A stretch of 64,000 bases of DNA, from NCBI GenBank assembly GCA_029260215.1, contig JAJDDQ010000014.1, positions 62,001 through 126,000 on the forward strand. The letters are read 5' to 3'. The notes under the pieces are model-generated. The model was not told where the DNA came from, did no database searches, and worked only from the letters and a program-made list of their open reading frames with translations. Position 1 is the first letter of the stretch. Each line of letters starts with the position of its first letter. A program made the translations under genes and the position numbers. Positions 1-19,591 of this stretch are shown here, in pieces. The DNA comes from Phycisphaerae bacterium (GTDB taxonomy: Bacteria > Planctomycetota > Phycisphaerae > UBA1845).

Positions 1-2620
1 CGTAGACCTCGAAAATGGACGACGGCGGGCCGGCGGGCCTGTCAAGCTGAGTGATGAGGTCGTTGCAGCTGCTCATGGCGTCCGGGGTGCCGGAGAGAAT
101 CAGCGTGTTGCTGCGTTCGTCCGCGATGAGTGTCGGCTTGCGGAACAGGTCGGGTTCCGCCGATTCGCTCTTTCGGGCGTCGAAGAGTTCGTTGAGCATC
201 TCGGTCAGCTTCACCGCGTCCGCGAATTCGAGATTCACGATCTTGGTATCGTCGCCGAGCAAGGGACTCATCTCGCCGTCCATGCGTTCGATGAGCCGTT
301 CGATGATGGAGAGGTTCGGCTTGGATGCGCTGACGATGACAGCGTTGATGCGTGGGTCGGCTGTGATGGCCACCTTGTTGCGCTCCTCGACGATCGGGCT
401 TTCGATGCCCGAAGTCGACGAATAAAGCCCCTGATCGAACAGTTCCTTGATTTTGTCGGAGACGTCGGACGCTTCCGCGCGTTCGAGGATGAACAGGCGC
501 ACGACGCCCTCGGCGAGCGGCAGGACGTCGATGGCGTGCGTGATTCGGTCGATTTCGGCGAAGTTTTCGCGACTGGACGCGATGAGCAACGTGTTGGTGG
601 CAGCGTCCACCGCGATGGCGACGCGGTCCGACGGGCTTGGCTCCTGACCGCTGGCGAGCCGCTGCTGCATGCGTTCTTCAAACAGCGAGGTGAGCATGTC
701 GCCGGTCTGGGAGGCGTCGTTGTTGGTCAGGGTGAGCAGGCGGATTTCCGCGATGGGAGAGAGCGGCTGCGCTTCGAGGCGGGCGACCAGCTCCTCAATT
801 TCGGAAAAATCCTCCGGGCTTGAGGCGACGATCATGGCGTTGCTGCGCTGGTCGGCCACGATGATGGGCTTGTCCACGGGCAGGTCGTCGGCGCTGCGCA
901 GGTCGGCTTTGCGCTGCCAGAGTTCGTCGATCTTGGTCGCCAGATCGGCTGCGTTGGTGTTGGCGCAGTTTACGATGCGGATGTTGTCGATGAGTCGGTC
1001 GGGGGCGACGTTCAATTCGGTGACGATCCGGCCTATTTCAGCGACGTTTTCCTCGCTGGCGGAGACGATGAGAGCGTTGCTGCGGATATCGACAGCCAGA
1101 AAGACCTTCTCGCGGGCGGCGGCCAGCTTGCCTGCGTCGGTTTCGTTGAGCAATTCGACGCGTTTTGTGTACAGCTCCTCGATGATGGCTTTGACGCGTG
1201 AGGCGTCCACGTTCTTGCCCAAAAACAGGAGTTTGAGCGGAAAAACCACTGTGGTGACCGGGACGTCGAGATTATTGACCACCATTTCGGCGACGGCCAA
1301 CTGCTCCGGTCGACCGGAGACGATCAGCGTGTTGGTACGCGCGTCGGCGGACAGGCCTATGTTGTAAACGAGGGCTGCCCCCAGGGTGGTCTCGGGGACG
1401 GCTTCGGTCTTGGTCCCGCCCGGTGCTCTTTCGGAGAGTTTCTTGCCCTCGTCGAACATGGTTTTGAGCATTTCCAGAACCTGATCCGCTTCGGCGAACT
1501 TGAGCGGGAAAATCTTGACGTTCATCGCGTGGCCCGTCGGGTAGCTGTCGAGCAGTTCAATGATCGCGCTGAGGGAGTCGATGTTCTTGTCAACGGTGGC
1601 GATGATGAGCGAATTGGTGCCTTTGTCGGACAGGACGCGCAACGGCTTGTCGAGATCGAGCGGTGCCAGTTCGGTTCGGGTTCCGTCGGTATTGGTTTTG
1701 ATAATGCTCAGGCGGCGGATGGTTTCCTGAACGTCGGCCTGCCCCGTGGTCGTGGCGAGCATGTCGGTGAGCACCTGCGACAAGTCGTCTGCCACCGCGT
1801 TGAGCAGCGGGAAGACGACGAGCTTGACCTGGCTGAAATCGCTGGTGGGTTCGACATCGATCTGATCGATCAACCTCTGAATCTGCTCGCGGATGGCGGC
1901 TGGGCCGAAGACCATGATGCTGTTGTCCGCGTCGTTGATCTCGATATCGATCTTTTCACGATCTTCCGCCCCTTGCCGGCCTTGTAGACGCTCGAGAATC
2001 GGCTTGAGTTGTTCGGATACTTCGCCGGCTTTGCGGTACTTGATGAGGAATTTCATCGTTTCGAATTCCGGCAGCCCCTGTTCGACATCGTCGATTGTTT
2101 GGGCCAGGCTGATCATGCGTTCGATGCGTGATTCGGGTGCGGAAATCAGGATCACGCTGGAGGAGACGGGTATTACGGTGACGCGCTGGGCGGGGATGTC
2201 GGCCATTCCGGGCCAGATTTCCGCTGCGATACTCTGGAGTTTCTCGGCCACTTGCTCGGCGCTGGCTTTTTCGAGCCGAACGAGTTCGATGGCTTTGTCG
2301 GCTGGTTCGCGGTCGATCATCTCGGCGAATCGCTCGAGGATTTCGATGTCGTGTTGCGGGCCTATGATGACGATTTCACCCGAAGAGAGCGTTTCGACGC
2401 TGACCTGCGAGCCACTGAGCTTGAGCTGGAGGTTTTCCAGCCCTGAAGCGTCGCTGGCACCCTGCTGGGCCTGGGCCAAGCGGTCGCGAAGGGCGCGTTT
2501 GGCGGCTTCGTCTTCTGCCTGCGCTGCCCCTTGGGCCAACACGACGGTCCCCAGGGTGAACAACGTCGCCAGCGTTAGAAGCGTGATTCGAGTTTTCAGG
2601 TTGAATCCGCGAAGTACCAT
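1..2620 (-). CDS. Secretin N-domain repeat protein (GspD-like), C-terminus cut by window edge
   Basis: The reverse frame is open from an ATG at 2620 to base 1, giving at least 873 residues. GAGG lies 9 nt upstream of this ATG; an in-frame ATG at 2629 is the alternative. The N-terminus is a signal peptide (MVLRGFNLKTRITLL... ending near VLAQGAAQA). After a short Ala/Gln-rich helix come at least 10 copies of a ~75-95 residue secretin N1-like unit. Each has a beta strand of the type TNTLIV or SNALIV, an amphipathic helix, and an end such as IDVP or LDRP. These units form the periplasmic gate rings of secretins (GspD/PilQ). Ordinary GspD has three or four. No secretin beta-barrel is visible before the sequence ends, so whether this is the true outer-membrane pore cannot be decided here. 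It is last in the T2SS-like gene block. Confidence 0.85.
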   Translation of the reverse strand, partial: MVLRGFNLKTRITLLTLATLFTLGTVVLAQGAAQAEDEAAKRALRDRLAQAQQGASDASGLENLQLKLSGSQVSVETLSSGEIVIIGPQHDIEILERFAEMIDREPADKAIELVRLEKASAEQVAEKLQSIAAEIWPGMADIPAQRVTVIPVSSSVILISAPESRIERMISLAQTIDDVEQGLPEFETMKFLIKYRKAGEVSEQLKPILERLQGRQGAEDREKIDIEINDADNSIMVFGPAAIREQIQRLIDQIDVEPTSDFSQVKLVVFPLLNAVADDLSQVLTDMLATTTGQADVQETIRRLSIIKTNTDGTRTELAPLDLDKPLRVLSDKGTNSLIIATVDKNIDSLSAIIELLDSYPTGHAMNVKIFPLKFAEADQVLEMLKTMFDEGKKLSERAPGGTKTEAVPETTLGAALVYNIGLSADARTNTLIVSGRPEQLAVAEMVVNNLDVPVTTVVFPLKLLFLGKNVDASRVKAIIEELYTKRVELLNETDAGKLAAAREKVFLAVDIRSNALIVSASEENVAEIGRIVTELNVAPDRLIDNIRIVNCANTNAADLATKIDELWQRKADLRSADDLPVDKPIIVADQRSNAMIVASSPEDFSEIEELVARLEAQPLSPIAEIRLLTLTNNDASQTGDMLTSLFEERMQQRLASGQEPSPSDRVAIAVDAATNTLLIASSRENFAEIDRITHAIDVLPLAEGVVRLFILERAEASDVSDKIKELFDQGLYSSTSGIESPIVEERNKVAITADPRINAVIVSASKPNLSIIERLIERMDGEMSPLLGDDTKIVNLEFADAVKLTEMLNELFDARKSESAEPDLFRKPTLIADERSNTLILSGTPDAMSSCNDLITQLDRPAGPPSSIFEVY

Positions 2621-2708
2621 AATCGCCATCCTCGCCTTGCTATGAATTTCGTTCACACATCGTGACATCCCTGCCGCGATGCGTGGCTGCTTTCCCTACG
2701 TTATACCG

Positions 2709-2752
2709 CCACCCGTTCGGGTGGATGCCCGGCATCAGCCGACCGTTCGGTC
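2709..2752. repeat. Cluster of three short palindromes in intergenic DNA
   Basis: Three hairpins follow one another with almost no spacing. CCACCC-gttc-GGGTGG is at 2709-2724, GATGC-ccg-GCATC at 2724-2736, and GACC-gttc-GGTC at 2741-2752. They lie in the 300-bp gap between the giant secretin-N gene and the next secretin-N gene, so they would be in the leader of the latter. The stems are short, and no adjacent T-run supports a terminator. A structured leader, or the end of a decayed IS200/IS605-type element, is possible but unproven. Confidence 0.45.
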
Positions 2753-2843
2753 ACGATCTACACATCGCCCGCTGCTTCCGGCTGCACCGTTGCGACGGTC
2801 GTGCCCTGGTGCGTTGCTACAACCCAACTGACGGATTCGACTT

Positions 2844-2865
2844 CCCCACCTCTGAAGAGGCGGGG
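2844..2865 (-). terminator. Hairpin 3' of the giant secretin-N gene (possible terminator or IS end remnant)
   Basis: CCCC-a-CCTC-tgaa-GAGG-c-GGGG forms a stem of 4+4 pairs with one A/C mismatch and a 4-nt loop, 56 bases downstream of the giant gene's stop. There is no T-tract after it on the minus strand, so a Rho-independent terminator is only weakly supported. With the palindromes at 2709-2752 it makes this gap unusually structured. Confidence 0.35.
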
Positions 2866-2920
2866 CACTCATCTGTCGAATCAGGCGTGGCTACGCATTG
2901 AGCTTCGATTTCGTGCCTGT

Positions 2921-5900
2921 CTACCTGCGTCCGCGTCGCCCCCCGCGCCGGGAGTTGCCACGGTTGCCACGGTTCGAATTCGGTCGGCGGCTGGATGAGC
3001 CGCGTCGCGCATTCGAGCCTCGGCCTGTCGAGCTTGTATTCTCTTGAATTACGCCGTCAAGTAAACGCTTAAGTTCCTCAGACGAAATATTTGTTGGATC
3101 GAGCACGCGCATGGTTCGCCCGCCGACAGGCCCGAGCGACTGCATCTGGCCCACGAGTTGCCGGACATCGGCGAACAAGGGGGCTGACCCGGCTACGAGA
3201 AGCAGGTTCGTGCGGCGATCGGGCGTGATGACCACGGTTTGCGGGTCGATGCCCCAGCGATCGGCTTTGATACGCTCGCCCTCGTTGATCGTGGTTTGGA
3301 TCATATCCGCCAATTCGTTGACGTTGAGGCCCTCGGGCACCTGAATGGTCGTGTAGGCATCTTGCTGTGCCTGGTCTTCGGCGTCGAGTTGATCGATCAG
3401 ATCGCGAATCTGCCCGTAATCGCTCGCGCTGGCCCGGATGATGAGCGTACCACTCGCATCGTCGGCTACGATGATGGGTTTCATGCGTTGGGTCTTGTTT
3501 CGCCCCCGACTGCCGCTTCCACCCCGGCCGCCCGCATCGACGAACATTTTGGTCAACATAGGCTCGACGATCGACGGGCGCGTGTTTTTCAAGAGCACGA
3601 TGCGCGGGGCGGTCCCGCCTTCAACCTCGATGTCGAGCTTGGCTATCGTATCTTTGATTTCGTTCAAATGGTCAGCCGCGGCGGAAACGATCAGCGTGTT
3701 GTTCTGCGTGTTGGCACTGATGCGTACGTCGCCGCGCAGTTCGGTTGACCCGCCTCGACCGCCCTTTTTGCCCGGCATGGAGAGGTAGGTTTCGAGCGCT
3801 TCCTTCATGGTGTCAGCGTCGGTGTGGACCAGCGTGATGACCTCGATCTCGCCCACGTGGCCTGAGGCGGTGTCGAGTTCGTTGATGATGCCCAGGATTT
3901 CCTCGAAATCTTTCTCGTTGGCTTTGACCAGGATGGTGTCGCTTCCGGGGATGGCTGAAATCTGGACGGGGGGGCCGCGGCGGTCCTGCTTGCCTTTGCT
4001 GCCACCCTTAAACATCTCCTGCAGAGCGCGATTGATGGATTCGCCGTCGCCGTGCGTGAGTTCGACGACGTGAATGCTGCTGTCGCTCGCGCCGGGCTGG
4101 TCGAAATCGGCGATGAACTTCTCCACCTCAGCCATCCTGTCCGCTGAGGCTGCCACGATCACGGACATGGTGTCCCATTCTTCGAACGCGGTGATTTCGC
4201 GTGAGGGATCGCGCGAGCCGACGATGCGGAAAAGCTCCGTGATGGCCTGCTTGGTCGCCCAGGGGTTGGCGTGGGCGAGTTTGAAGCCTCGGATCAGCCG
4301 CTCGCGCGATGCGTCCGGCTTGTTGTCCAGTGTTGCGACGAGTTTCGTCACACGGTCGAATTCGGCGTCGTTGGCGAAGACGATCAGCGAGCCTGTGCCG
4401 ATATCACCGGCGATGGTCATTGTCTGTTGGCCTCGCTCGCTGCGAATGATTCGGCTGAACAGTTCCTGAAGTTTGCCGGCTAGCTCGTCGGCGTTGGCGT
4501 GCTTCAGTTTGACGATGCGTTCGCTGCGTACGGTGGCGGCGGCGACATCGACCTGTTCGAGAATTTTCACGATTTTTTTCTGATTTTCCTCGCTGGCGGT
4601 GATGACGAGCTTGCTCGTACCCCAGTCGTAACCGACATCGACGAGATCTTCGGGCTTGCTGCCGCGCTGGGGCCTGAACATCTGATTGAGGGAGCCGACC
4701 AGCGAGCCGGGATCGGCGTAGTTGACGGAATAGACGCGCACGACGCGTTCGGAACTGAGCGAGGGTTGATCGAATTCCTTGATGAGCGTGACGATCTCTT
4801 CGACCTCTTCGCTGGTCCCGCCGACGAGCAGGGTGTTGAGGGCTTCGTTGGCGATGACGGTCGGGCCTGACGGGGCGCTGCCGCGTGAAGCGGGCACCTG
4901 TCGCGAACGGTTGAACTCATTGATCACACGTGCGAGGTCCGCGGCTTCGGCGTGTTCGAGCACGACGATCTTTCGCGATCGGCTGGCGGCTGACTCGCTG
5001 GCGGGGACGTCGATTTCGCGAATCACGCTTTCGACCAGCATAAAAGCCGTCGGCCCGCCGATGGCGACGATGGTGTTGGAGCGTTCGTCCGCGACGGCGG
5101 TGAAAACGTCGAGTTTTTTGCTGTTTTTGACCTGTTGCGCGAGCTGGCGGACGATGTCCATCAGCTTCCCATGCACATCGACGGCCTTGGCATGTTCCAG
5201 CTTGAAGATACGCGGCTGAATGTCCAGCGAGGATTGATCGAGCGTTCGGGCGAGTTTTTCGATCTCTTCGAAGAGGTCGTCGGCTGCGGTCACGATAAGC
5301 TGGCTGGTCACGTCGTCGCCGACGATCTTGACCCCGCCACGTTTACCCTTGCCACCGCCGGTGTCGAAAATCGTCTTCAGGGCGTTTGCGATGTCGCTGG
5401 CTTTGCCGTCGGTCAGAGTAATGACGCGGGGTTTGGATTCCTGCGTCAGCGGTTGATCGAGTTGGGTGATGAGAATTTCGACGCGCGGGAAATCTTTCTC
5501 GAATGCACTGACGATCAGCGTGTTGGTGCGTGCGTCGGCGATCGCGTTGATGGAGTTCACGTCGCGCGGATCGCGTGCGTCGTCGGCGCTGCGTCTTGAG
5601 CCGCCGGACTTCGCCTTGAACACGTCGCCGATGCGGGCGGCTACGTCGACAGCGTCCGCGTGTTCGAGCTTGTAGCTGCGTTCGACGAGTTCGGGCACGT
5701 CCTGAGCTTCGAGTTGCTCGATGAACTTACTGATCAGATCGAGCGCGGGTTTCGGCGCTTTAACCAGAAGCGTGTTCGCCGTCGAATTGCTGGTGATGAT
5801 GATATCACTGGCAGCGTCGATGGAGCCGGCATCGCCGCCCATCCCGCCGAGGTTAAGCAGTGCGTCCTCGATCTGCTGCATAGCCTGGTTCTGCCCGCCG

Positions 5901-8900
5901 GCCCGCCCCCCGCGCGGTCGGGGCGATCGCCCGGCGGAGGGTGAACGACCGGGTCTACTGACGCCGAGCAGGACTTTCAACTGTTCCTCGACCTGTGCGG
6001 CGGCCAGCTTTTCGAGCTTGTAGATTTTGAACTCTTCCTCGATCTCCGTGGGGCGATCGATGGTGGCCAACAGCTCCACGATGATGGGGAAGTCCTCGGT
6101 GGCGGCCTTCACGATGACCGAGCGATTCTGCGGATCGGCGGTGATGGTGATGCTGGACATGCCCGCTTTTTGAGCCTTGCCGTCTTTGCCGTCCGCCGGT
6201 TGCTCACCCTCCCGGCCTTTCGGCTGTTGCTGCGGGGCCTGCCCGCGGGCCATCTGCTGCTGCAACTGCTGCATGCGTTGTTGCATCTGTTTCATGCGTT
6301 GTTGCTGTGCAGCCGCCCCTCGATTGCCCCGGTTGGCTGCGGCGGCGCGCTGTTGCGGCGCGAACATACTCTGAAGCAGATTGGCGACGACATTAACGTT
6401 TCGATAGCGGATGCGGAACACGCGCACGTCTGGTTTGCCGCCGACCGACTCGATTTCCTCCATGATGTCGTTGAGCATGTCTTCGACTTCTTCGACCGCC
6501 TGGGGGGGGCCGTCGATCACGAGCACGCCCTGTCGATCGTCGAATCGCACGCGTACAGCGTCCTCGGCGACCGGTTGATCCTCGTTGTCCGCCGTCAAAC
6601 TCTCCTTTATGGCCAGCTTGGCATCCTCATCAGAGGATTTGTCGGACGCACCGCCAGCATCGTGTTGCGTGGGCGCGGACAGCGTGACGCCGCCCATCGT
6701 CTCGATGAGTGACATCGGCAACGCACATGGACGGTACGGCTTAAGTTGATCGACGGTAGGGATGTCCTCACCGACCTGGTCCAAATTAACGACCAGAGTC
6801 GGCATCCTCATTTTCAGGAGCTTGGCTACCTCGCTGGCACTGTTGCCTGCGACGCGTTTGAAGACGATCGCACGGGAGGACTTGGCTGCCTCCGATTCCT
6901 TGTCCACGTATTCCTTGATGTAATCAAGGACCAGTTGCTCGTGCTCGGGCAGCGTCTTGACGACCAGGATGTTCGTGCCGGAAATGTAATCAACCTCCGG
7001 CGTGTCGCCGTGAGGCCAAAGCACGTCGAGCACGCTCTCCAGGCGGATGGTCGCATCGAACGGGTCAACATATTTCAGATCAAACGTCAGCACGGGGACC
7101 GGCTCGGAAGCGGAAATCTCCGGCTCTTCGGATTCGGTACCGTCGTACAACTGCACGAGTTGATCGATCTCGAATATCTTCACCGGCTTGGCCCGGACGA
7201 GCATGATACGATTGATGTAGTCGGTTGTGATGGTGATTTCGCTGCCTTTGCGCACGCCGCCGAGCATGTCGAAACCGAAGTCGTCAACCGTGTCAGCCTT
7301 CTTCGCCGGCTTGCCCGTCGTGTCGCAGAAATCCATGACGGTGTCGGCCATCTCGTCGGGGTCCATGCGAATCAGTTTGTAGACCTTCATGATCGTGCCG
7401 GAGGTGGCGGTCTCGTCCAGCATTTTGATCCACGATTCCACCTCGTCGACGGCTTCGGGGGATCCGCTGAGCACGATGGCTCCGCCGCCGGGGGCAGCCA
7501 CTACGGCCACGTCGTCGGTCGTGGTCGAGCTGGCACTGGCATCGCCGGCTTTGGCATCGCTTCTGCGGCGCAATCGCGGACGGCGTGCGGACGGCGTGCT
7601 CTGCTTGCCCGAAATCATGGCTGACAGGGTTGTCACCATCTCCATCGGATCGGAGCGACGAAGCTGAATGGTGCGCACGATGCGCTGTGACTCGCTGCCC
7701 GGCTTGTCCAACTCGGCGATCAGCGCCTCCGCCTCAGCCACGATGGTCGGCGGGGCAGCGACCACGATGCGACCGGTGTTCGGCTCGGCGGTGAGCGTGA
7801 TGCCGCCTTGCGCGGGTTGTTTCCGGCCGCCCTTGGGGGCGCCGTCGGTGGACAGCTCGCCGGTGGACTTAAGCTCCTGCATGCGCTGCAGAAGAATGGG
7901 TTCGAGCAGATCAACCACCTCGGCTGGCGAGGCGTGGGTGAGGGAAATAAATTTCACTATAATGCTTTCGGGCGAAGCGCCTTCCAGCAACTCGTGCAGG
8001 TAGCCTTCGATTTCCTCGAAGCGATCCACCGGGGCGACAATGAGGATGCGGCGTGTGGTCATCTGCGCCACAATGCGCGCGTTATCCATCATCGCGATCT
8101 GCGTAGCACCGCTCTTGCCGGCGGGCCGTGCGCGACGTGTTGAAGCGCTACCTGTCAGCAGCGTCTCCAGAAGCGTGACGATGTTTTGCACATCGTGACC
8201 GGGCGGAACGTCGTAGACACGCATCGCCGTGTCGTCGTCCGACGGCGCGTCCAATTCCACGATGAGCGTGGAGATATCCTCGACATCGTCAAGCAACCCG
8301 CTGACCACGAGTGAACGCCCGTAGACTACGATGATGAGCGGTTCTTCACCGGCGGCTGTCGGGGTCTTGCCCGCACGACGGCGTTTCGGTTGGGATCGAC
8401 TGATAACACCCGCGTCGATGAGGGCCTTCAATTCGACGGGGTCTGCGTATTGCAGCGTGAACACGCGACGCACGCGCCCCGCACCGGCTACGTCGATGTC
8501 CGCGATGAGCGCTTTAATCTGCATGATTTCCGACGGCGTTGCGTCGGTCACCAGAATGGCCCCGCCGGCTGCACTGAACCTCGGCGATCCGCCTGAGGCC
8601 ACGCGCTTGGGGCTCGCTCCGAACAATTGCGTCAGCGTCTGGATGACATCGTCCGGGGCGGTGTTCAGCAGTTCTATCCTGACGTGATTGGGTTCGAATC
8701 GGGCCTGCTCGTCGAATCGTTCGAGCATCGGAAGATAGTGCTCGACCCATTCTTCGCCGGTGCAGATAACGTGGAGCATTTTGGTCGCATCGTCGGCCAC
8801 CATGTTGCCCGTTCCGGTTGCGGCTTTTCGTCTTCCGGCCGTCTTGCGCATCGGGCTTTTCTTGCCGGGGTTTTCCGCCCCCCCCCCCTGGGCGCTTTCA

Positions 8901-10708
8901 AGGAGCTTCAACAGTTCCATCGCAGCCGTCGGAGACGCGTCCGAGAAACGATAGCTGTGCAGTTCAACGCCCCCGTCACCGACATCAAAGCGTTCGATCA
9001 GAATCCTGGCTGTCGCGATGTCGTCCTTGCTGCCGGTGAGAATGAGCGTGTTGGTCGACGACTCGGCATGCGCATTGAAAATATCCCCGACGGCCTGTTT
9101 GCCACGGGCTTTAGCCACAACGATTTGCGTGAGCAGCGGAGCCAGTTGGTCGGCCGTCGTGAACCTGAGCTGGACGAATTCGGGCCTGTCCGCCTCGATC
9201 GGCACGTCGAACATTTTCACGTATCTTCGAACACGAGCGACATCCTCATCGGATGCGCGAACGATGAGCGTGTTGGTGCGCATGTCCGCGTGCAGGGCAA
9301 TCGCGTCGGCTTGTACCATCGTCGCCGTTTTCGGCTTGTTTGCCGTTCCACGGTTCTTCCCCCGGTTTCGCGTGACAGCCCGGGGAGTCTGGATGCGCTC
9401 GCCGGTAACCAGCGGACTGATCAAAGCCATGATCTCGTTCACGTCGGCGTGGATGATCGGAATCAGGACGGGGTCAGCCTCTTTCAGATCGTTGTCCACG
9501 TCGATGAACTTGAGCATCTCCTTGATCTGATCGATCTGCCTGGTTACAGCCCGAACGATGATGACGCTCTGAGCGTCGTCTGGAAACAGGATGGTCAGTT
9601 GGCCCGGCAGGTTGATCGGCTCGGCCCCGCCGCGTCGCCTGCGCGCCGTGCCGCCCGGTTTCCCGTTTTCGCTGAGTTCGTCGCCCATCAACGTACGCAG
9701 CAATTCGACGGCTTCGGTCGGGCTGATGAAGTTCACCGGCAGCTTGACCAGAATCCGCGGATCGTCGCCCGCACCCTCGAACAGTTTGATAAGTGACAGA
9801 TACTTCTTGATATCCTCAGCCAGTGCGAAAATCGTGATCGAGTTGGCTTCCTCCAGCGGCGCGATACGTACGTAGTCGGGCATGAAATCACGCAGCATGG
9901 TGAAATCCGCCACCGACGTTTCCGACGGCGTATACAGCACCATAGCCAGTTCAAAATCATCGGTACCGGAGGCTTCGAACGACTTGACGTTGATGAATAT
10001 CTGGTCGAGCGGTAGGTGGCGAGGAACGTCCGTTACACGGAGCACTTCAAAACGATTGTCCTGGTAGAGCAACCAGTAAGGCTCGATCGGCTTGTACTTG
10101 AACAAGAGCTTGCGCACGCGCTTGAGCGCGGTCTTGAAATTCATCTCTTCGGTACTGACAAACGTCACCGGACCGATCGGGGCTTCGCCGACCACACCGA
10201 TGCCGGCCATCCGGGCGAAGTTCTCGACCAGGTCTTTGTACGAACCATCGACAATGGAGAAGGAATAGGTGCGTTCCTCGGGGGCTTTGCCCAGATCGTC
10301 AGGGTTGATATTCAGACGCGAGGAAACCGGCTCGGTCGCACCGCTGGGCGGCGGCGTCCGGGGCGTCGGCTTGGCGGGCGACTTCCCCGGCGCGGCGGCA
10401 CCGGTTGCGGGCGTGGTGCGATTTCGCGGGTTGCGGCGCGGTGTGCGTCCGCGCGAACTGCCCTTGGGCGTCTTGCCGCGCGTCGAGCGTGTCGTTGTTT
10501 TTCCGCCCTTGGACTCATCGCCCTTTTTCTGTTGCAACGCGGCAGGCAGGCCGAACGCGGATGCGTCAGCCAACGTCGGGAAATCGCTGATTTCCTGCGC
10601 GGATGATTCACGCGCCGTCAGGCTGAGCATCAGCAACACGGCTGAGCAAGTCATCCAGCACATCCGTGCGGTCATTCCGAAGAGGGGCTTCGCTTGTCGA
10701 TCCATCAT
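2921..10708 (-). CDS. Giant secretin N-domain array protein, 2595 residues, no visible pore domain
   Basis: The chosen ATG (10708) has GGAG six bases upstream and gives MMDRQAKPLFG followed by a hydrophobic segment and a cleavage-like SSAQ. An ORF start 36 bases further out lacks this. Residues ~60-135 are a basic K/R/P/G/T linker. Residues ~145-230 resemble an STN/N0 domain. By eye the rest contains about 26 secretin N1-like units, each with a strand such as NTLIVSA and a helix ending near LDQP or IDVP. They are separated by Gly/Arg/Lys-rich linkers and one Gln/Met-rich stretch (DNA about 6200-6350). The last ~45 residues are an Arg/Gly/Ser/Asn-rich tail. The secretin beta-barrel family signature is not seen. 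Secretin N-domains stack into periplasmic rings, so an extended periplasmic fibre or scaffold of the T2SS is the likeliest inference. It lies 96 bp after the GspM-like gene, in operon orientation. Confidence 0.88.
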   Translation of the reverse strand: MMDRQAKPLFGMTARMCWMTCSAVLLMLSLTARESSAQEISDFPTLADASAFGLPAALQQKKGDESKGGKTTTRSTRGKTPKGSSRGRTPRRNPRNRTTPATGAAAPGKSPAKPTPRTPPPSGATEPVSSRLNINPDDLGKAPEERTYSFSIVDGSYKDLVENFARMAGIGVVGEAPIGPVTFVSTEEMNFKTALKRVRKLLFKYKPIEPYWLLYQDNRFEVLRVTDVPRHLPLDQIFINVKSFEASGTDDFELAMVLYTPSETSVADFTMLRDFMPDYVRIAPLEEANSITIFALAEDIKKYLSLIKLFEGAGDDPRILVKLPVNFISPTEAVELLRTLMGDELSENGKPGGTARRRRGGAEPINLPGQLTILFPDDAQSVIIVRAVTRQIDQIKEMLKFIDVDNDLKEADPVLIPIIHADVNEIMALISPLVTGERIQTPRAVTRNRGKNRGTANKPKTATMVQADAIALHADMRTNTLIVRASDEDVARVRRYVKMFDVPIEADRPEFVQLRFTTADQLAPLLTQIVVAKARGKQAVGDIFNAHAESSTNTLILTGSKDDIATARILIERFDVGDGGVELHSYRFSDASPTAAMELLKLLESAQGGGAENPGKKSPMRKTAGRRKAATGTGNMVADDATKMLHVICTGEEWVEHYLPMLERFDEQARFEPNHVRIELLNTAPDDVIQTLTQLFGASPKRVASGGSPRFSAAGGAILVTDATPSEIMQIKALIADIDVAGAGRVRRVFTLQYADPVELKALIDAGVISRSQPKRRRAGKTPTAAGEEPLIIVVYGRSLVVSGLLDDVEDISTLIVELDAPSDDDTAMRVYDVPPGHDVQNIVTLLETLLTGSASTRRARPAGKSGATQIAMMDNARIVAQMTTRRILIVAPVDRFEEIEGYLHELLEGASPESIIVKFISLTHASPAEVVDLLEPILLQRMQELKSTGELSTDGAPKGGRKQPAQGGITLTAEPNTGRIVVAAPPTIVAEAEALIAELDKPGSESQRIVRTIQLRRSDPMEMVTTLSAMISGKQSTPSARRPRLRRRSDAKAGDASASSTTTDDVAVVAAPGGGAIVLSGSPEAVDEVESWIKMLDETATSGTIMKVYKLIRMDPDEMADTVMDFCDTTGKPAKKADTVDDFGFDMLGGVRKGSEITITTDYINRIMLVRAKPVKIFEIDQLVQLYDGTESEEPEISASEPVPVLTFDLKYVDPFDATIRLESVLDVLWPHGDTPEVDYISGTNILVVKTLPEHEQLVLDYIKEYVDKESEAAKSSRAIVFKRVAGNSASEVAKLLKMRMPTLVVNLDQVGEDIPTVDQLKPYRPCALPMSLIETMGGVTLSAPTQHDAGGASDKSSDEDAKLAIKESLTADNEDQPVAEDAVRVRFDDRQGVLVIDGPPQAVEEVEDMLNDIMEEIESVGGKPDVRVFRIRYRNVNVVANLLQSMFAPQQRAAAANRGNRGAAAQQQRMKQMQQRMQQLQQQMARGQAPQQQPKGREGEQPADGKDGKAQKAGMSSITITADPQNRSVIVKAATEDFPIIVELLATIDRPTEIEEEFKIYKLEKLAAAQVEEQLKVLLGVSRPGRSPSAGRSPRPRGGRAGGQNQAMQQIEDALLNLGGMGGDAGSIDAASDIIITSNSTANTLLVKAPKPALDLISKFIEQLEAQDVPELVERSYKLEHADAVDVAARIGDVFKAKSGGSRRSADDARDPRDVNSINAIADARTNTLIVSAFEKDFPRVEILITQLDQPLTQESKPRVITLTDGKASDIANALKTIFDTGGGKGKRGGVKIVGDDVTSQLIVTAADDLFEEIEKLARTLDQSSLDIQPRIFKLEHAKAVDVHGKLMDIVRQLAQQVKNSKKLDVFTAVADERSNTIVAIGGPTAFMLVESVIREIDVPASESAASRSRKIVVLEHAEAADLARVINEFNRSRQVPASRGSAPSGPTVIANEALNTLLVGGTSEEVEEIVTLIKEFDQPSLSSERVVRVYSVNYADPGSLVGSLNQMFRPQRGSKPEDLVDVGYDWGTSKLVITASEENQKKIVKILEQVDVAAATVRSERIVKLKHANADELAGKLQELFSRIIRSERGQQTMTIAGDIGTGSLIVFANDAEFDRVTKLVATLDNKPDASRERLIRGFKLAHANPWATKQAITELFRIVGSRDPSREITAFEEWDTMSVIVAASADRMAEVEKFIADFDQPGASDSSIHVVELTHGDGESINRALQEMFKGGSKGKQDRRGPPVQISAIPGSDTILVKANEKDFEEILGIINELDTASGHVGEIEVITLVHTDADTMKEALETYLSMPGKKGGRGGSTELRGDVRISANTQNNTLIVSAAADHLNEIKDTIAKLDIEVEGGTAPRIVLLKNTRPSIVEPMLTKMFVDAGGRGGSGSRGRNKTQRMKPIIVADDASGTLIIRASASDYGQIRDLIDQLDAEDQAQQDAYTTIQVPEGLNVNELADMIQTTINEGERIKADRWGIDPQTVVITPDRRTNLLLVAGSAPLFADVRQLVGQMQSLGPVGGRTMRVLDPTNISSEELKRLLDGVIQENTSSTGRGSNARRGSSSRRPNSNRGNRGNSRRGGRRGRR

Positions 10709-10804
10709 GGTTGGCTCCGAATATCGCGGTACGGGCTTGTACACCCGGCCTACGCGCCGACTCGTGCGATTCTTGAACGCTCCGCAGGTGAAACCCAGGA
10801 TGCG

Positions 10805-13045
10805 TCAATCGCCGTTGTCGTTCGCGTTTTCGTTCTTGTTCTTGTTTTCGTTCGCGTCGTCGCTTGCGTTCTTATTGTCGTTCACGTTCTTGCCGTCGCT
10901 GCTCGCGCTCTTTTTCGGCTTGGAAACCGATTTGGAGGCCGACTTCTTATTTGACGGTTTTTTTCGCGTGCCCGGCTTCCGTGCGGCGGTCGATGCGGGA
11001 TTCGACTTTTTCGCCTCTTTCCCGCCCGCCTTCTTCGCGTTCGACGTTTTTTTCGTGTTCTGACCGGCCTTCGCTCCCTTATTCACCGCTGGCTTTGCAG
11101 CGGTTGCGTCCGGTGCCCCGGGACGACTGCTTTGCGGTGTGCCGGCACGTTTCGCACCTTGATCCGGTTTTTTTCCGGTGGCAGCTTTACCGTTTTTGCC
11201 GGTTATCGCGGGCTTGCCAGTCGCGGGAGGCTGGCCGGATTCCGTCTTTCGCGAATCGGCACGCTCCGCGGATTGGCTTGCCTTGCCCCGGTCGCGCGGT
11301 CGAACGCGGCGTGTCCGCCGTCGTGAAGTCCTCTCGTCGGCTTCGTTCTCTTCCTCTTCCTCACCCTCATCCCGCCTCGGTGCGACTTTGTCCCGTCCGA
11401 AGATGTTTTCGATGACATTGCCAGCCGGGCGTCGCGGATTTCTCTTGGGTGGCATCGCGTCACCACTATCGCCTTTAATCGTCGGCGGAAATTTTTCGGT
11501 CGATTCGGCATCGGGAGCATTGGTTGACGTCGGCGGTTTCGGTTTGCCGTCGCCTTCTTTGCTCGCGGATTCACCCTCTTTTTTGTTGCCCTCGCCATCG
11601 CCCGACTCCTCGTCAACGGTTTGATCGTCGGCGGCTTTGAGCGTCTCACGAATCGACTCATAGGCGAAGACGACTTCCGGGAAAACATCGACAGCATTCT
11701 CGACCAGCATGGCGTCAGCCAGCCTGTAACCGACTGGATAAATTCGTGTCGTGCCGTCCTCACGCCGGGAGGCAGCCCCGAGTGCATGAACCAGCACGAT
11801 GTTTCCACCGTCCAATTCCTCGCCGAGACGCACGTAGTCGGACTGCTTGCTCTGCGTGTTGACGACCATGACCTCAGCCACGTCGTCGTACACCATAGCC
11901 ATGCGGATGACTTTGCTGTTGCGATCGGGGTCGCCGGTGTTCGGCGGCTTACAGCCTGCCTCGGTACTGCGAACCTGCGTACACTGCTGGTTTTCGAAGA
12001 ACGATCCACCTCGTGAGACACACTGCTGGGACGTAAGCGCGCCGCAAACACCCCCACCGTAACAGCACGCCCACTTCGGGTCGTTGGTCGCGACCTGCGG
12101 CGGCGGCTCTTCCTTGCAACGCACATTCTTGCATTTGTTGCGACCGGGGCGAATTTCGCCACCCTGCGCTTCGCACTGATCGCGCGGAATCTCGACACAT
12201 TGATCGTTCAGGCAGCACGCCACCGGGGGTTTGCACGCGGCTTCGCGCGAACGCACCTGGCCACAGGTTTCGTTCTCGAAAAAGCTGCCACCCTTGGAGA
12301 TGCACGCCTGCGCGTTGATCTTCTCACACTGTCCCGCCCCGTAGCAGCAGGCCCAGTTCGGCGGCGGTGGTGGCACGTACTCTTTGAAGAACGCCCGTTC
12401 CGACACGAGTGCGTAGTCGTGGTTCTCGTGTTTGACGTGCGTCGCCACCGGTTTGATCAGTTTCGGGTTGACCTCGGCTGTCCGATCCAGCGGCGGCACG
12501 ATCGCTTCGTACGTGGCGCTCAATCGGACGAGTCCTTCGCCTCTTTTCGCGGACCTGCCACTCGGCGGGTCGAGCGTGACGTCCGTGAATTGCGAAATGT
12601 AGGGCAATTCGTAGCCGGCTTTGAGAAAGTTCATGATCGATGCAAACGTGCCGTCAGCCGTCACCGAAAAACGCACGACGCGAATGTCCGTCTTCTTCGA
12701 TCGTCGTCCGGGCGGGCGATAGTCGGTCAGATTCTTGGGTGTGACGCGCGGGTTGCTCAGGCCAACGTCCTCGACCAATGCGGTCAACCGGGCGTAAAGG
12801 GCAGCACGAACTTCGTTGCCGTCCGTGGATCCACTCCGCCCCAGAAGCTGTTTGTAGTCTTCGCGATACGGCTGAATATCGTCCAGCCGATTCTGCAATT
12901 CACGCAACTCCATCTCGCGTTCGTCATTCTTGGCGGCGATCGAGAAGACATGCTCGTTCAGCACAGGCCAAACGAGACTGCCGCCGAGATAGATCGCTCC
13001 AGCCAGGCCGACCAGAGCCGCAAGCGTTTTTTCGCGTTTGCTCAT
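10805..13045 (-). CDS. PilO/GspM-like inner-membrane protein with Cys-rich insert and charged tail
   Basis: 746 residues; ATG at 13045 with GGAAG nine bases upstream. Residues 8-28 form one membrane segment after a short basic cytoplasmic end. Residues ~35-60 look coiled-coil, and ~60-190 fit the PilO/GspM ferredoxin-like periplasmic domain. Residues 231-365 hold three Cys-rich modules starting WACCYG, VACCLN and WACCYG, with six cysteines each (233, 234, 240, 248, 261, 271; 277, 278, 283, 291, 305, 310; 327, 328, 334, 342, 355, 365). Residues ~380-465 are a beta-rich domain that may be PilP/GspC-like (inference). The last ~270 residues are low complexity: acidic, then Lys/Ala/Ser-rich, then Asn/Asp/Lys-rich. 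GspM is normally ~160 residues, so this protein is greatly expanded. It follows the PilM-PilN gene by 19 bp. Function as part of the inner-membrane platform is inferred from position and the N-terminal half. Confidence 0.75.
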   Translation of the reverse strand: MSKREKTLAALVGLAGAIYLGGSLVWPVLNEHVFSIAAKNDEREMELRELQNRLDDIQPYREDYKQLLGRSGSTDGNEVRAALYARLTALVEDVGLSNPRVTPKNLTDYRPPGRRSKKTDIRVVRFSVTADGTFASIMNFLKAGYELPYISQFTDVTLDPPSGRSAKRGEGLVRLSATYEAIVPPLDRTAEVNPKLIKPVATHVKHENHDYALVSERAFFKEYVPPPPPNWACCYGAGQCEKINAQACISKGGSFFENETCGQVRSREAACKPPVACCLNDQCVEIPRDQCEAQGGEIRPGRNKCKNVRCKEEPPPQVATNDPKWACCYGGGVCGALTSQQCVSRGGSFFENQQCTQVRSTEAGCKPPNTGDPDRNSKVIRMAMVYDDVAEVMVVNTQSKQSDYVRLGEELDGGNIVLVHALGAASRREDGTTRIYPVGYRLADAMLVENAVDVFPEVVFAYESIRETLKAADDQTVDEESGDGEGNKKEGESASKEGDGKPKPPTSTNAPDAESTEKFPPTIKGDSGDAMPPKRNPRRPAGNVIENIFGRDKVAPRRDEGEEEEENEADERTSRRRTRRVRPRDRGKASQSAERADSRKTESGQPPATGKPAITGKNGKAATGKKPDQGAKRAGTPQSSRPGAPDATAAKPAVNKGAKAGQNTKKTSNAKKAGGKEAKKSNPASTAARKPGTRKKPSNKKSASKSVSKPKKSASSDGKNVNDNKNASDDANENKNKNENANDNGD

Positions 13046-13064: not shown

Positions 13065-14681
13065 TTACCGCCCCTTGGTCTTGCGTTTGCCGTCGTCGCG
13101 ATCCTGGACGTCCGCCACGTTCACCGTCAGCGTTCCGATATACGAATAATCGTCGCGTTCCTTCGTGCTCGTGCCGCCAAGCTTGGCTGCAAATACAGGC
13201 TCCTTGCGGTCGGCGGGGTGAAACGCCTCCAGAGCACGGGCAGCACCGTGCCCGACATTCATCTCCCTGGCCCGAAACGGCAGCTTGATGCTCCGAGATT
13301 TCTGCGACAGACCGATACGCGAGAGAACGAATTTCTGCTGATCGGGAAGCGTTCCCGCCAAGTCATACAGCGTATCAATCCAAACAATGCGATGCGCCTC
13401 GTAATCCCGGAGCGTCTTTACAAGCTCAATGAAGTCCTTCTGCGAATCAAGCTCATCCTCAACCTCACTGATGGCCACCTCCAGTTCAGCACGGCGGTCG
13501 TGCTGCGGCTTGATCATCTGCACATAGACCACGCCGCCCGCAATCAGAAACAACGCCACAACCGCGGCTGCGAGCGGCGCACTCTTGACACGCCGCTCAG
13601 CCACAGAGATTGGCCGCTTCGGATCGAGAAAGTTGAACCGCAGCGAAGAATCCTGCGTCTGGGCGAGCACCAAACCCAAAGCAGCCGCGAACGCGCCCGC
13701 AGCCGCTCCCTGATCCGCGTTCCACCCGAAACACTTGGCTGGGTTGTAAGGCTGGGCGGTGATGTGGTATTGGCGTTCGATCGCTTCAGCCAACGCCTCC
13801 TCAATCTCACTGCTTCCACCGATAACGGCATGATCGAGCACCGCCGCCGGATTGCCCACCTTGTAGGCTTCGATGGACCGCGTCACTTCGATCATCAACG
13901 CCTTCTTCGCCCGCTCCAGAGTCGTCGCCTCCGGTTCGCTGGTCACGATCAACGAAAGCCCTTCATCCTCGCCGGCGCCCAAGTCCGCTTCCGGCGTTGA
14001 TGTCGCAGTCGGCGCCTCCGGGACCACCAGCTCAGCCGGAAGTTCCACGTCCGCAGCCCGTGAGAAAACGAGATGCCCGTCGCACAGGATATCGATTTCC
14101 GTGGTGAGCGGGCCGACATCGACAAACAACACGTGTTTGTGCGGGTTGTTCTTGAGCAGCTCGTTGACCGCGAATTGATTGGCATTCGGACGCAGGCCGA
14201 CCCGCACCAGCTTCAGGCCAGCCGTCTTGAATACCTGCTTGTAGAAATCAACTTCCTCATGACGAACCGCAGCCACCAGCACATCATGCGTTTCAGATTC
14301 GTCGTCCAACTCCGGTGGAATCGTAAAGTCGACCGCAGCCTGATCTATGGGAAAATGCAGTTCCTTCGGCACCTGGAAAGCGACCATGCCCGCCGTGTCA
14401 TCGATCGATACACGCGGCAGGTTCAGCGTGTGAAAATTGACGCGCTCGCGCGGGATATCCACGACGGCGGTTTTGGTCTTGATGCCGGCTTTCGACAGCG
14501 CTTGCCCGAGAAAAGCCCCCATAGACTCAATCTCGTCCACGCGCACGTCCGCAGGGATCGGAACGGCGAGCACCTGATCGACGGTGACACGTTTGCCCTT
14601 GGCACGCGCCTGCACGATGCGCAGCGTCCGCGCATCCCAGTCCACGCTGATCAGCGACTTGTCAACGATCGAATCCAACAA
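13065..14681 (-). CDS. pilM: PilM-PilN fusion (GspL-like platform protein)
   Basis: 538 residues from a TTG start with AGGAG nine bases upstream; the start lies inside the end of gspK (20-bp overlap). Residues 1-~345 match the actin-like PilM ATPase fold: an N-terminal VDWDARTLRIVQ strand, then PNANQFAVNELL, and the phosphate-loop-like FVDVGPLTTEIDI. Residues 368-390 are a single membrane helix, ~395-420 coiled-coil, and ~430-538 a PilN-like periplasmic domain. In type IV pili PilM and PilN are separate, while T2SS GspL joins the equivalent parts, so this is a GspL architecture with a PilM-like head. It should connect the cytoplasmic assembly ATPase with the PilO/GspM-like protein encoded next. 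Confidence 0.88.
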   Translation of the reverse strand: MLDSIVDKSLISVDWDARTLRIVQARAKGKRVTVDQVLAVPIPADVRVDEIESMGAFLGQALSKAGIKTKTAVVDIPRERVNFHTLNLPRVSIDDTAGMVAFQVPKELHFPIDQAAVDFTIPPELDDESETHDVLVAAVRHEEVDFYKQVFKTAGLKLVRVGLRPNANQFAVNELLKNNPHKHVLFVDVGPLTTEIDILCDGHLVFSRAADVELPAELVVPEAPTATSTPEADLGAGEDEGLSLIVTSEPEATTLERAKKALMIEVTRSIEAYKVGNPAAVLDHAVIGGSSEIEEALAEAIERQYHITAQPYNPAKCFGWNADQGAAAGAFAAALGLVLAQTQDSSLRFNFLDPKRPISVAERRVKSAPLAAAVVALFLIAGGVVYVQMIKPQHDRRAELEVAISEVEDELDSQKDFIELVKTLRDYEAHRIVWIDTLYDLAGTLPDQQKFVLSRIGLSQKSRSIKLPFRAREMNVGHGAARALEAFHPADRKEPVFAAKLGGTSTKERDDYSYIGTLTVNVADVQDRDDGKRKTKGR

Positions 14682-16203
14682 GTTCAGAATCTCCTTCCGC
14701 GTAACGAATCGGGTACGCCGTACCCAGCATGGTTATATCACGGTTGTAAACGGTCTGCGCGATCGGGCCGCGCATTTCAATAATCGACTCCAAACGCACA
14801 ACCGTCCCGAGATGATCCGAATAACCCATCGACTCGACATGAAATCGATTGCCGCGCGCTGTGAGAAACGGAGAAGCCGTAATAAACCGCTCGCCCCCCA
14901 GGATCGGTGCCAACCATCCGATCGATCGTTTTTCTTCGGGCGCGAGCGCCGCCCGAGCCTCGATGACGGCTGTGACTTCTTCCTCGGAAAAGATTCCGGT
15001 CGCCGTCAGAACTGCCGCGGGGGCCGTGTTGATGTTGACCCTGCCCGTGAATTCCGGCGAACGCGACGTGGTCAGCAGGTCCATCACCCAGATCATGTCC
15101 GAAACGGAAATCGGCGACGGAACCGTCTCCGGCGGCAAACCCAGTTGATTGTTCCCGTTGCCCCCCGCCTGCATCTGCCGAGGCCTCAGCAACTCCGCCG
15201 GATCCTTAATTCGCGGTTCACCCGAACCCGCATCGGCGATGAAGTTGATCTTGCCCTGATCGTCCACAAAATCAGTAAGAGCCGTGCGCACTTCCTCGGC
15301 GTCGCCGAAAAGGTACGTGCGCGGTTTGTTCTCCGAAGTACGGTTGGCCGACCGGGAAAACACCGTGATGTACGGCAGAATCCCGCGATTCAACGCGGCG
15401 TCCGCGTCGTCCGGCGGAAAGGTCTCGTCGCCGTCGTCCTCGTTCGGGCTTAGCAAGCCGTTGCGATCGTAATCTTCGCCATACAGCAGCGTACCGGAGA
15501 ACCCGCGCACAAGCAGTATTTCCTCGACCGTGTCGAAAGGAGCATTCTTAACCCGGTAAGGCGGCTCCAGGCGGGCGTAGTATTCCGTCTCCGCACCGAA
15601 CGGGCGTGGTGTTTCGTCAGCATCCCGCCAGTCGATCAACGCATCGACCAGCTCCGACACGTTCGTTTCCTCGTCGGCAAACTGCCGAAGAAGCAACGCG
15701 AGTTGATTAGGGGTCGCGTCGTTGATGTTGAGCTTGGACGACTCGTCCGTAATGCCGTACCGCACGAGCACCTCGTCATCCAGCGGATCGTCGGCCACAA
15801 TGCTGAAGCGGAAGACGCGACGATCGTCCTCGAATTCATCGATCGTGCCGAGTTGGTCCTCGGTAAGATCGTCACCCCAGACGATCACGCGATGGTATTC
15901 CTCAGGGTTGTGATACCATGCATCCACGTTGGTCAGGTCGGTGCGCAACTTGAACATGACCTTTTGCAGACCAGCCTCAGCCGCCATCCTCGCCTGAAAC
16001 CGATGCGAAATCGACCGCGTCGCCGACAAATCCGCATGCACATAAAACGAACCGCTGGCCGCGATCAACCCGAGCAATACCAACACCAGAAGCGTCACCG
16101 GCAACAAGACAGCCCTGCGCCTGCTATCGCATCGACGCCCAACCCACGCTCGCATATTGAGCGCCCGCGCTTGCCTGTCTGCCAACTTGCTTTGCTTTGT
16201 CAT
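14662..16203 (-). CDS. gspK: GspK-like minor pseudopilin
   Basis: 513 residues; ATG at 16203 overlaps the gspJ stop by four bases (ATGA). A basic N-terminus precedes the hydrophobic stretch AVLLPVTLLVLVLLGLIA (~residues 31-48), the pseudopilin-type segment. Then comes the GspK pattern: a long helix rich in Ala/Arg, a DESSKLNINDATPNQL-like segment with the conserved 'LNIN' signature, and helix-hairpin-helix-like repeats (also VNINTAPAAVL). GspK is the largest minor pseudopilin, has no Glu+5, and caps the pseudopilus tip with GspI and GspJ. Its length exceeds the usual ~320 residues because of an Asp/Glu-rich insertion around residues 235-260. Confidence 0.9.
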   Translation of the reverse strand: MTKQSKLADRQARALNMRAWVGRRCDSRRRAVLLPVTLLVLVLLGLIAASGSFYVHADLSATRSISHRFQARMAAEAGLQKVMFKLRTDLTNVDAWYHNPEEYHRVIVWGDDLTEDQLGTIDEFEDDRRVFRFSIVADDPLDDEVLVRYGITDESSKLNINDATPNQLALLLRQFADEETNVSELVDALIDWRDADETPRPFGAETEYYARLEPPYRVKNAPFDTVEEILLVRGFSGTLLYGEDYDRNGLLSPNEDDGDETFPPDDADAALNRGILPYITVFSRSANRTSENKPRTYLFGDAEEVRTALTDFVDDQGKINFIADAGSGEPRIKDPAELLRPRQMQAGGNGNNQLGLPPETVPSPISVSDMIWVMDLLTTSRSPEFTGRVNINTAPAAVLTATGIFSEEEVTAVIEARAALAPEEKRSIGWLAPILGGERFITASPFLTARGNRFHVESMGYSDHLGTVVRLESIIEMRGPIAQTVYNRDITMLGTAYPIRYAEGDSELVGFDR

Positions 16204-17216
16204 TCCACATCCTCCAGCCCCGCCAGCGACGACACCTCGCGCTGCAATCTCGGGCCCAGGAACAATGAATCCGCCTGCGGCACGCGCACGATCACCATGT
16301 AGCGATCCCTCGGCAGCGGATCGATGTCGCCCTCACTCTTGAGGATGTCATCAATGATTTCGATATCCTCGTTCTCGGGCAGTTCCGGCTCATACCCGAC
16401 GGTAATCATCACCATCTGCGGCAGAGAATTGCCCTCGGAGATTTCCCACGAATCCCACCAGCGCGTGCCGTCATGATAGAAAAACTCGATGAACTTCAAC
16501 TCCGGAGCGTACAACTCGCGCTTGGCTCCCTCCATCTCCTCATCAGCCAACTCTTCGCCCAAATTGTCGTCGAAGACATCGTTGCTGCTCTGACCAAACT
16601 GCGGGCGAGGCGCACCGTCGTCGTTCGCCGCATCGCCGCCGAGCAAACCACCGGCATCGTCCTGTCCAATTCCGCTCCCATTATCGTTCGCGTTGTCGTT
16701 TGCATTGTCACTGGAAGCCGCGTCAGCCTCACCAGCCAGCGCTTCCGCCTCAGTCACGCCAAGCCGATTGAACGTCTTGCGTTCGCGACGAATCAAGCCC
16801 AGAGCACGCGGATCGTTGTCCTCGTCAAGATTCACGTCGTCCCACGCGATGTAGTAATCAATTTGCCGCAAGTCGAATTGGCCGGGGCGGCGCTCCGCAC
16901 GCGCACCGCGACGCTCCACCAACGCCTTGTCCGGTATCACCACAGTGTTGATCGAAATACGCTCGCGCGTGCCGAAAATCCCAGTTCCGAACCCGCCCGA
17001 AAAGCCCGTGGCCTGCCTGATTTCCTTGGCCATGCGGTCAATCACGACGCGGGCCAACTGCGTGTGACGGATGCGCTCGACCGAAGCGTCCCGCGTGTCC
17101 AGCGCGTTGGCGTAGAACCAAAAGAGCAAGCCCAAAACCGGCACCATAAGCCCAGTCGCAAGCAATATCTCCAGAAGCGTTACCGCTCGTTTTCGGTGTC
17201 GATTACGTGAAGGCAC
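16200..17216 (-). CDS. gspJ: GspJ-like minor pseudopilin
   Basis: 338 residues from a GTG start with GGAGG eight bases upstream. The prepilin motif AVTLLEILLATGLM sits at residues ~11-25, where the Leu-Leu-Glu matches the peptidase cleavage site with Glu+5, followed by a hydrophobic helix. The mature part has the GspJ pattern with an early amphipathic helix (IRHTQLARVVIDRMAKEIRQ). A low-complexity Asn/Asp/Ala insertion (about residues 160-190) is extra relative to typical GspJ of ~200 residues. It is translationally coupled to gspK. Confidence 0.88.
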   Translation of the reverse strand: MPSRNRHRKRAVTLLEILLATGLMVPVLGLLFWFYANALDTRDASVERIRHTQLARVVIDRMAKEIRQATGFSGGFGTGIFGTRERISINTVVIPDKALVERRGARAERRPGQFDLRQIDYYIAWDDVNLDEDNDPRALGLIRRERKTFNRLGVTEAEALAGEADAASSDNANDNANDNGSGIGQDDAGGLLGGDAANDDGAPRPQFGQSSNDVFDDNLGEELADEEMEGAKRELYAPELKFIEFFYHDGTRWWDSWEISEGNSLPQMVMITVGYEPELPENEDIEIIDDILKSEGDIDPLPRDRYMVIVRVPQADSLFLGPRLQREVSSLAGLEDVE

Positions 17217-17221
17217 AAATA

Positions 17222-19061: not shown

Positions 19062-19517
19062 CTATCTCTCAATCCAGTTCTTGATATCGTCGTCCGTACC
19101 GTCCTTACCGTCCGGACCGACGCTCCACAGGTCGTAGCCGGTTTCGTTGAACTCACCCGGAGAGCGGTACCGAAACTGCTGAACCCACGGATCGTTGAGC
19201 GATTCGATTTCACCGTCCATGTAAGGCCCTTGCCAGATATTCCGCTCCTCGTCGATGCTGCTGGGCCGTTCGTACAAGGCAGCCAAACCCTCATCCGTGT
19301 CCGGATACCTGCCCACGTCGAAGTTGAACTGCTTCAGCCCGCTCGCGATCGCGCCGTTGCGCTGAATCGTGGCGTTGACAATGCTGACCTTGGCCTTCTT
19401 GCCGGAATTGGTCAGCGCAGGCACCGCAAAGGCAGCCAGCAACGCAAGGATGGCCGCCACCATCAACACTTCAATAAGCGTAAAACCAGACCGCCGTCTC
19501 ATTCGCTTCGCTCTCAT
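19062..19517 (-). CDS. gspG: GspG major pseudopilin
   Basis: 151 residues using the ATG at 19517 (GGAG nine bases upstream); ATGs at 19532 and 19547 are in frame. The N-terminus MRAKRMRRRSGFTLIEVLMV is the classical class III prepilin leader with cleavage after Gly and Glu+5, followed by a hydrophobic helix. The body has the GspG hallmarks: NATIQRNGAIASGLKQF helix, DVGRYPDTDEGLAAL, PWVQQFRYRSPG, and the C-terminal calcium-binding loop with GPDGKDGTDDDI. This protein polymerises into the pseudopilus that drives substrate through the secretin. It is separated from gspF by 74 bp and from gspH by 98 bp. Confidence 0.96.
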   Translation of the reverse strand: MRAKRMRRRSGFTLIEVLMVAAILALLAAFAVPALTNSGKKAKVSIVNATIQRNGAIASGLKQFNFDVGRYPDTDEGLAALYERPSSIDEERNIWQGPYMDGEIESLNDPWVQQFRYRSPGEFNETGYDLWSVGPDGKDGTDDDIKNWIER

Positions 19518-19591
19518 CACATCAGTCTCCATTTCATTAAGAGTCAACGGGCTTCCGCATCACCCGCATTCAGAATTCATCAAAACAAACA

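Follow-up and report, generated by a model that had tools for sequence, protein, structure and literature searches.

A Phycisphaerae type II secretion locus with two adjacent genes that probably encode one hyper-extended secretin of about 41 N-domains

Secretins of the type II secretion system (T2SS) assemble as 12- to 15-fold rings that form a gated channel, and their N0 domain is bound by the HR domain of GspC. To our knowledge, the secretins described so far carry few N-domains. The barrel lies in the outer membrane, the N-domain rings are stacked below it, and N0 is located at the inner-membrane platform (PMC6882859, PMC5745081); PulD, with N0 to N3, is 20 nm long (PMC6882859). PilQ of Thermus thermophilus, with six stacked rings and a length of 350 Å, has been called exceptionally long (PMC5745081), and for the phage secretin pIV, length was found to match periplasm width in E. 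coli (PMC8563730). The N-domains (GspDN1-3) and the barrel of mitochondrial GspD are encoded by separate genes, two of the pieces are N-domain halves, and a contact between GspD and GspDN1 has been reported by two-hybrid (PMC8134430). DotD, of the Dot/Icm type IVB system, is a separate protein with an N0-like secretin subdomain. None of these precedents (GspDN1-3, DotD, and PilQ) comes near the number of N-domains encoded by the two genes described here.

The window, i.e., the whole stretch of DNA analyzed, comprises 64,000 nucleotides of a Phycisphaerae bacterium (UBA1845; GCA_029260215.1, contig JAJDDQ010000014.1, positions 62,001 to 126,000) whose genome totals 4.97 Mb in 88 contigs. Protein A is encoded entirely within the window; protein B, the next gene downstream on the same strand, runs past its left edge, and its full length is given in the coordinates of locus L013. 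The features of the two genes are as follows.

2921..10708, (-): protein A, 2595 aa, exported; N0, about 26 N-type domains, a terminal half domain, and a basic tail
10595..10708, (-): signal peptide of A (predicted Sec), aa 1 to about 38; relatives likewise
10016..10291, (-): N0 domain of A, aa 140-231, from the model and the match to ETEC GspD N0
3143..9949, (-): array of about 26 N1-type domains in A, aa 254-2522, with linkers of about 9 residues
3029..3121, (-): bisected N-domain, first half (beta1-alpha1), aa 2530-2560, C-terminus of A
2924..3028, (-): basic Arg/Gly/Ser tail of A, aa 2561-2595, net charge +13
2669..2920, (-): A/B intergenic gap, 252 bases
1..2668 in the window, whole gene L013:4662-9668, (-): protein B, 889 of 1668 aa inside the window and the rest past its left edge
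2309..2422, (-): bisected N-domain, second half (beta2-beta3-alpha2), aa 83-120, near the start of mature B

The frame of protein A is complete, from an ATG at 10708 to a stop at 2921-2923, with a GTG upstream, at 10744, as a possible alternative start; the signal peptide cleavage site was placed by eye near the junction of SSA and QE. A sequence-only reading had described A as roughly 26 secretin N1-type domains behind an N0-like start, with no secretin barrel, in a T2SS block, and each of these points held up. Searches against Pfam returned Secretin_N (PF03958) with an E value of 5e-183 (594 bits versus a curated cutoff of 28.2, in 20 significant stretches). A repeat HMM, built from A's own repeats and then refined with relatives, delimited 26 units. 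The secretin barrel (PF00263) was not found in A at E values of ≤0.1, and the NCBIfam GspD match was confined to the N-domain part of that model. Because this barrel is absent, A alone is not classed as a secretin.

Two AlphaFold models, of aa 140-760 (621 aa, mean pLDDT of 78) and aa 1905-2565 (661 aa, mean pLDDT of 75), bore out the fold by the route that the sequence-only reading had suggested, structure prediction of consecutive repeats: N0 is present in the model of aa 140-760, followed by consecutive beta-alpha-beta-beta-alpha units, i.e., a KH-like fold, which DSSP assigned in both models. The pTM of these two monomer models was low (0.41 and 0.32), and thus the models do not fix the domain-to-domain arrangement. 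N0 in the model of aa 140-760 superposed on the N0 of ETEC GspD (4jtm, Z of 11.2 and 2.4 Å over 77 residues; 3oss, 1.7 Å over 75 residues) and on the DotD structures 3ady and 7mud, while a repeat (model residues 368-439) superposed on GspD chains with 1.2-1.4 Å over 59-65 residues. T2SS secretins ranked at the top for the models and sequence of A in Foldseek and profile searches. The KH-domain Pfam matches in A (PARP14 and SLS1) most likely reflect the common KH-like fold. The net charge of the helix1-strand2 loops of A was +27 and that of its cores −80, and the loops of B were near neutral.

Protein B consists of its own signal peptide, the half domain, 15 N-domains, a secretin barrel, and a C-terminal tail (Secretin_N, E value of 8.8e-138, 449 bits, 14 stretches; PF00263, E value of 2.5e-51 at aa 1392-1557). 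A had at first been taken for a protein without a pore, which is correct for the chain itself but not for the system: A does not stand alone, as the pore is encoded in the adjoining gene B and forms part of a single chain in relatives. Together, A and B carry the PF00263 barrel, the N0 domain, the N-domains, and the T2SS operon setting of a T2SS secretin, and they do so on two chains, not on a single polypeptide with N0 to N3. GspD, PulD, and XcpQ share with them N0, N1-type KH-like domains, a C-terminal barrel (here in B), and the T2SS operon but have three N-type domains (N1 to N3) in one chain, compared with about 41 over two chains with the barrel in the second, and the C-terminal S-domain was not identified in A or B. 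T. thermophilus PilQ likewise has extra N rings that lengthen the channel in a wide periplasm, although these are six rings in one chain versus about 41 domains in two. Mitochondrial GspD and GspDN1-3 are also split, but they are eukaryotic, the pieces hold single or half N-domains, and their origin is independent. DotD has one small domain and no array.

Upstream of A lies a run of T2SS genes, given here with the E values of the family matches.

10805..13045, (-): GspM/PilO-like inner-membrane protein (T2SSM, 0.0015 in relative L023)
13065..14681, (-): PilM/GspL-like protein (PilM_2, 1.4e-20)
14662..16203, (-): GspK minor pseudopilin (NF037980, 1.2e-24)
16200..18963, (-): minor pseudopilin-like genes (GspH/I/J-like), convincing family match for the GspH-like gene only
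19062..19547, (-): GspG major pseudopilin (T2SSG, 1.3e-24)
19592..20794, (-): GspF inner-membrane platform protein (T2SSF, 4.8e-54)

A and B are thus co-located with pseudopilin and platform genes (GspF, GspG, GspK, and PilM-like), and this arrangement is kept in relatives, with the PilM- and GspM-like genes upstream at split and fused loci alike. The I- and J-like pseudopilins were assigned from position and N-terminal sequence. A GspE gene is absent from the contig of A and B, and the host genome has 14 T2SSE-domain matches. The C-terminal beta domain of the GspM-like protein is conserved; T2SSC matched in 1 of 14 members at an E value of 0.074, a hint from Pfam only, and no convincing PDB match was found for the GspC HR domain. 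This beta domain might, at a weak level of support, be a GspC-like partner of N0.

Two further observations concern cysteine-rich sequences in this gene run. Within the GspM-like protein of the window (10805-13045, minus strand), a Cys-rich motif (ACCYGAGQC...CISKGGSFFENETC) about 40 aa long is present twice; in its place, the GspM-like proteins of relatives carry either Pro-rich linkers or a PKD-like insert. A recurring motif of the same kind (ACCLPDGTC) occurs in a putative exported protein of 2340 aa encoded upstream of gspF (21066-28088, minus strand), which also contains three segments that resemble one another (CDYLSPDEVH...), several hundred residues in length, and an EPDGF-type region at its C-terminus. 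Judged by position only, this protein is a possible T2SS client.

Next, we looked into how A and B are organized across related genomes. The N0 region of A was matched in 54 of 60 related genomes, and the survey, another check put forward with the sequence-only reading, placed homologues of A, split or fused, in T2SS loci. Nearly all named relatives of f1, the family of the window, were MAGs of Phycisphaerae, Phycisphaerales, or Planctomycetota, UBA1845 included. A and B are separate adjacent genes in families f1, f2, and f5, with one three-piece locus in f2 and one in f1. Families f4 and f8, of the same order, have one chain of 4144-4890 aa composed of N0, 37-45 N-domains, and the barrel. In other Phycisphaerae orders, nearly all loci fetched encode an uninterrupted chain (N0, 22-51 N-domains, and the barrel), with PilM/GspK genes alongside where recognized. 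The total number of N-domains was 40.6 ± 2.9 in the 18 complete split systems of f1 versus 40.9 ± 2.3 in the 11 complete fused ones of f4 and f8; across the class, it ranged from 22 to about 59. The longest A found (L045:3269-18331, plus strand) has 5021 aa, with N0 and 55 N-domains; behind it lies another N-domain frame, truncated where the fetched sequence stops. At another locus (L110:5955-15035, plus strand), an open frame of 3027 aa runs antisense to the relative's giant secretin gene, most likely a codon-bias effect.

The boundary between A and B falls inside a domain. In every one of the 23 split pairs examined, the last whole domain of A is followed by strand 1 and helix 1 of one more N-domain and then by a tail, usually basic, and B opens with the other part of an N-domain (strands 2-3 and helix 2). 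The same bisected domain is present within one chain in the 11 complete fused homologues, where a long insert keeps the halves apart; this insert contains basic and hydrophobic stretches as well as low-complexity sequence. The fused chains thus resemble an A and a B linked at the point where the two were formerly separate. In f8, the hydrophobic stretch still resembles a signal peptide and closes with A-x-A/G-Q (e.g., MVAGSIPVFMMQVALSSAMAQ in L058). We read this junction segment as a putative signal-peptide remnant, weaker in f4 than in f8, on the basis of its position, its n-h-c pattern, and, in f8, the A-x-A/G-Q end, as a plain hydropathy scan did not single it out in every fused protein. 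The fused f8 loci also have a conserved GPRxDAxWTxxRR directly before this segment (e.g., L058 aa 2720-2780).

In L113, which is of the uninterrupted type, the homologue of the domain halved at the tail of A is whole. A tree of the barrels grouped fused f4 and f8 in a single clade (97/91), which had split f5 as its neighbor and split f1 and f2 outside; the branch uniting f5 with f4 and f8 was weak (84/54). Because the fused clade lies among split lineages, the simplest history starts from one ancestral chain, which in the order's ancestor was split within an N-domain and acquired a second signal peptide, and ends with one later re-fusion. Alternatively, a long insert with a hydrophobic segment may have come first and the signal peptide of B may derive from that segment. 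An independent fission in family f86 (L120) and an additional one in L061 likewise interrupt an N-domain close to the helix1-strand2 loop, which indicates that continuity of the chain is dispensable while the whole array is retained. Separately, an in-frame TAG in a Gln-rich loop (L025:8146-8148) cuts A without a new signal peptide; it may be a nonsense mutation, a readthrough site, or a sequencing error.

Given the split pairs and the fused and uninterrupted homologues, we interpret A as the part of a split, hyper-extended type II secretin that lies nearer the inner membrane, and we think it probable that A and B are the two chains of one such secretin with about 41 stacked rings. Each chain would be exported via its own signal peptide. 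B would provide the outer-membrane barrel and the adjoining 15 N-domains (the upper rings), and A would prolong this stack toward the inner membrane with about 26 more N-domains and then N0, which would dock at the inner-membrane assembly platform as in T2SS secretins. The chains would meet inside one N-domain, with strand 1 and helix 1 coming from A and strands 2-3 and helix 2 from B, and the two halves would complement each other by folding together into one ring of the stack, the joint. The product would be a gated channel of about 41 rings, about 100 nm long or more if all units stack as in known secretins; our own estimate of about 2.5-3 nm per extra ring, multiplied by 41, gives more than 100 nm. 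Such a channel could house the pseudopilus and cross the wide planctomycete periplasm. More tentatively, as a proposal that could readily turn out otherwise, the tube would measure 100-130 nm across an enlarged periplasm, the separately exported chains of its roughly 41 rings would be snapped together via the split N-domain, and the f8 protein would be a polyprotein cut at its internal signal peptide.

Several other explanations were weighed against the two-chain secretin. The sequence-only reading had suggested that A could form a periplasm-spanning fibre, a sleeve around the pseudopilus, or a large ring scaffold fitted to the planctomycete cell plan. That A is an exported chain of its own, with no barrel, is in keeping with a structure outside the secretin of B, but the fused homologues, the bisected boundary domain, the constant sum of domains, and the shared operon all tie A to B, and we regard a separate structure as improbable. 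A free fibre and a separate scaffold are accordingly not favored, A being the N-terminal half of a split secretin, while the sleeve came close to our explanation, in that the secretin's own periplasmic tube would surround the pseudopilus, except that it is not separate from the secretin. A looser arrangement within one machine, in which the N-domains of A and B tether the platform to the pore as a flexible string of beads and do not form a continuous ring stack, seems unlikely, yet it has the most in its favor among these alternatives. The width of the planctomycete periplasm varies greatly (PMC5394234), the N0/N1 rings are flexible in known secretins (PMC6882859), and the AlphaFold models show no fixed interdomain geometry. 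On the other hand, known N-domains pack as rings (PMC5745081, PMC6882859), and the linkers are uniform (median of 9 residues in 7 of 7 systems measured, nearly all within 7-12), which, with positional conservation of the domains, argues for fixed neighbors rather than a loose tether.

This positional conservation also bears on the view that the array is a neutral repeat expansion with no function of its own, to which the variable number in the class might point. When the repeats of A and B were compared in order with those of relatives, the best match was the order-matched counterpart for 36 of 36 aligned repeats in L023 (mean score of 190.8 on the path and 42.0 off the path), 29 of 35 in L029, and 20 of 34 in the fused L058. 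These alignments indicate that the N-domains are individually conserved, position by position, with their order kept. The repeats are therefore closer to their counterparts in other species than to one another, unlike the products of recent amplification, and the N-domain totals are conserved as well; we rejected neutral expansion, now very improbable, on the positional orthology of the repeats. Least probable of all, hardly deserving consideration, is that the split is a sequencing or gene-calling artefact and that the organism makes one chain. Some relatives do have one chain, and the extra TAG in L025 brings no new signal peptide, but the 252-base gap, the signal peptide of B itself, and the same boundary in 23 systems speak against it; on the last two of these grounds, we also rejected a frameshift artefact.

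If A and B form one secretin, the number of their N-domains suggests that a tube on the scale of 100 nm crosses the wide planctomycete envelope. The planctomycete periplasm can be greatly enlarged and is very variable in width, and crateriform "press stud" structures join the outer and cytoplasmic membranes (PMC5394234); the organisms in question were Planctopirus, Gemmata, and Rhodopirellula, not Phycisphaerae, and a link to these structures or to this periplasm is thus a suggestion. The giant secretin is a candidate bridge between the two membranes of planctomycetes. With 22 to about 59 N-domains in a widespread lineage, it offers a natural test of whether the number of rings sets the length and follows the width of the periplasm. 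The bisected domain and the fusion scar document fission and re-fusion of a subunit of a membrane machine, and the joint between the chains is open to experiment.

To assess how widely such arrays occur, we counted Secretin_N matches per genome. Of the 148 Phycisphaerae genomes sampled, 57 had at least 27, among them 31 of 31 of the window's order, and the other 91 had at most 23 and no long array. The maximum in sampled planctomycete genomes outside the Phycisphaerae was 21; phyla beyond the planctomycetes were represented by 14 control genomes only. These results indicate that the giant array is a trait of the class, although lost or absent in some of its members, and not an oddity of a single MAG. 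We found no description of it in the open-access literature on Phycisphaerae or planctomycete secretins, Secretin_N, or split secretins.

The genome that encodes A and B also encodes ordinary secretins of 585, 636, and 1034 aa, each with at most one recognizable N1 unit, and crossing the envelope therefore does not always need 41 rings. A 314-aa protein with two secretin N-domains and no barrel is encoded in the same genome away from the T2SS operon (L018:3899-4840, plus strand), and slightly downstream of B lies a gene for an exported protein of 299 aa (L013:864-1763, minus strand) in which an N0/STN-like stretch was recognized by eye.
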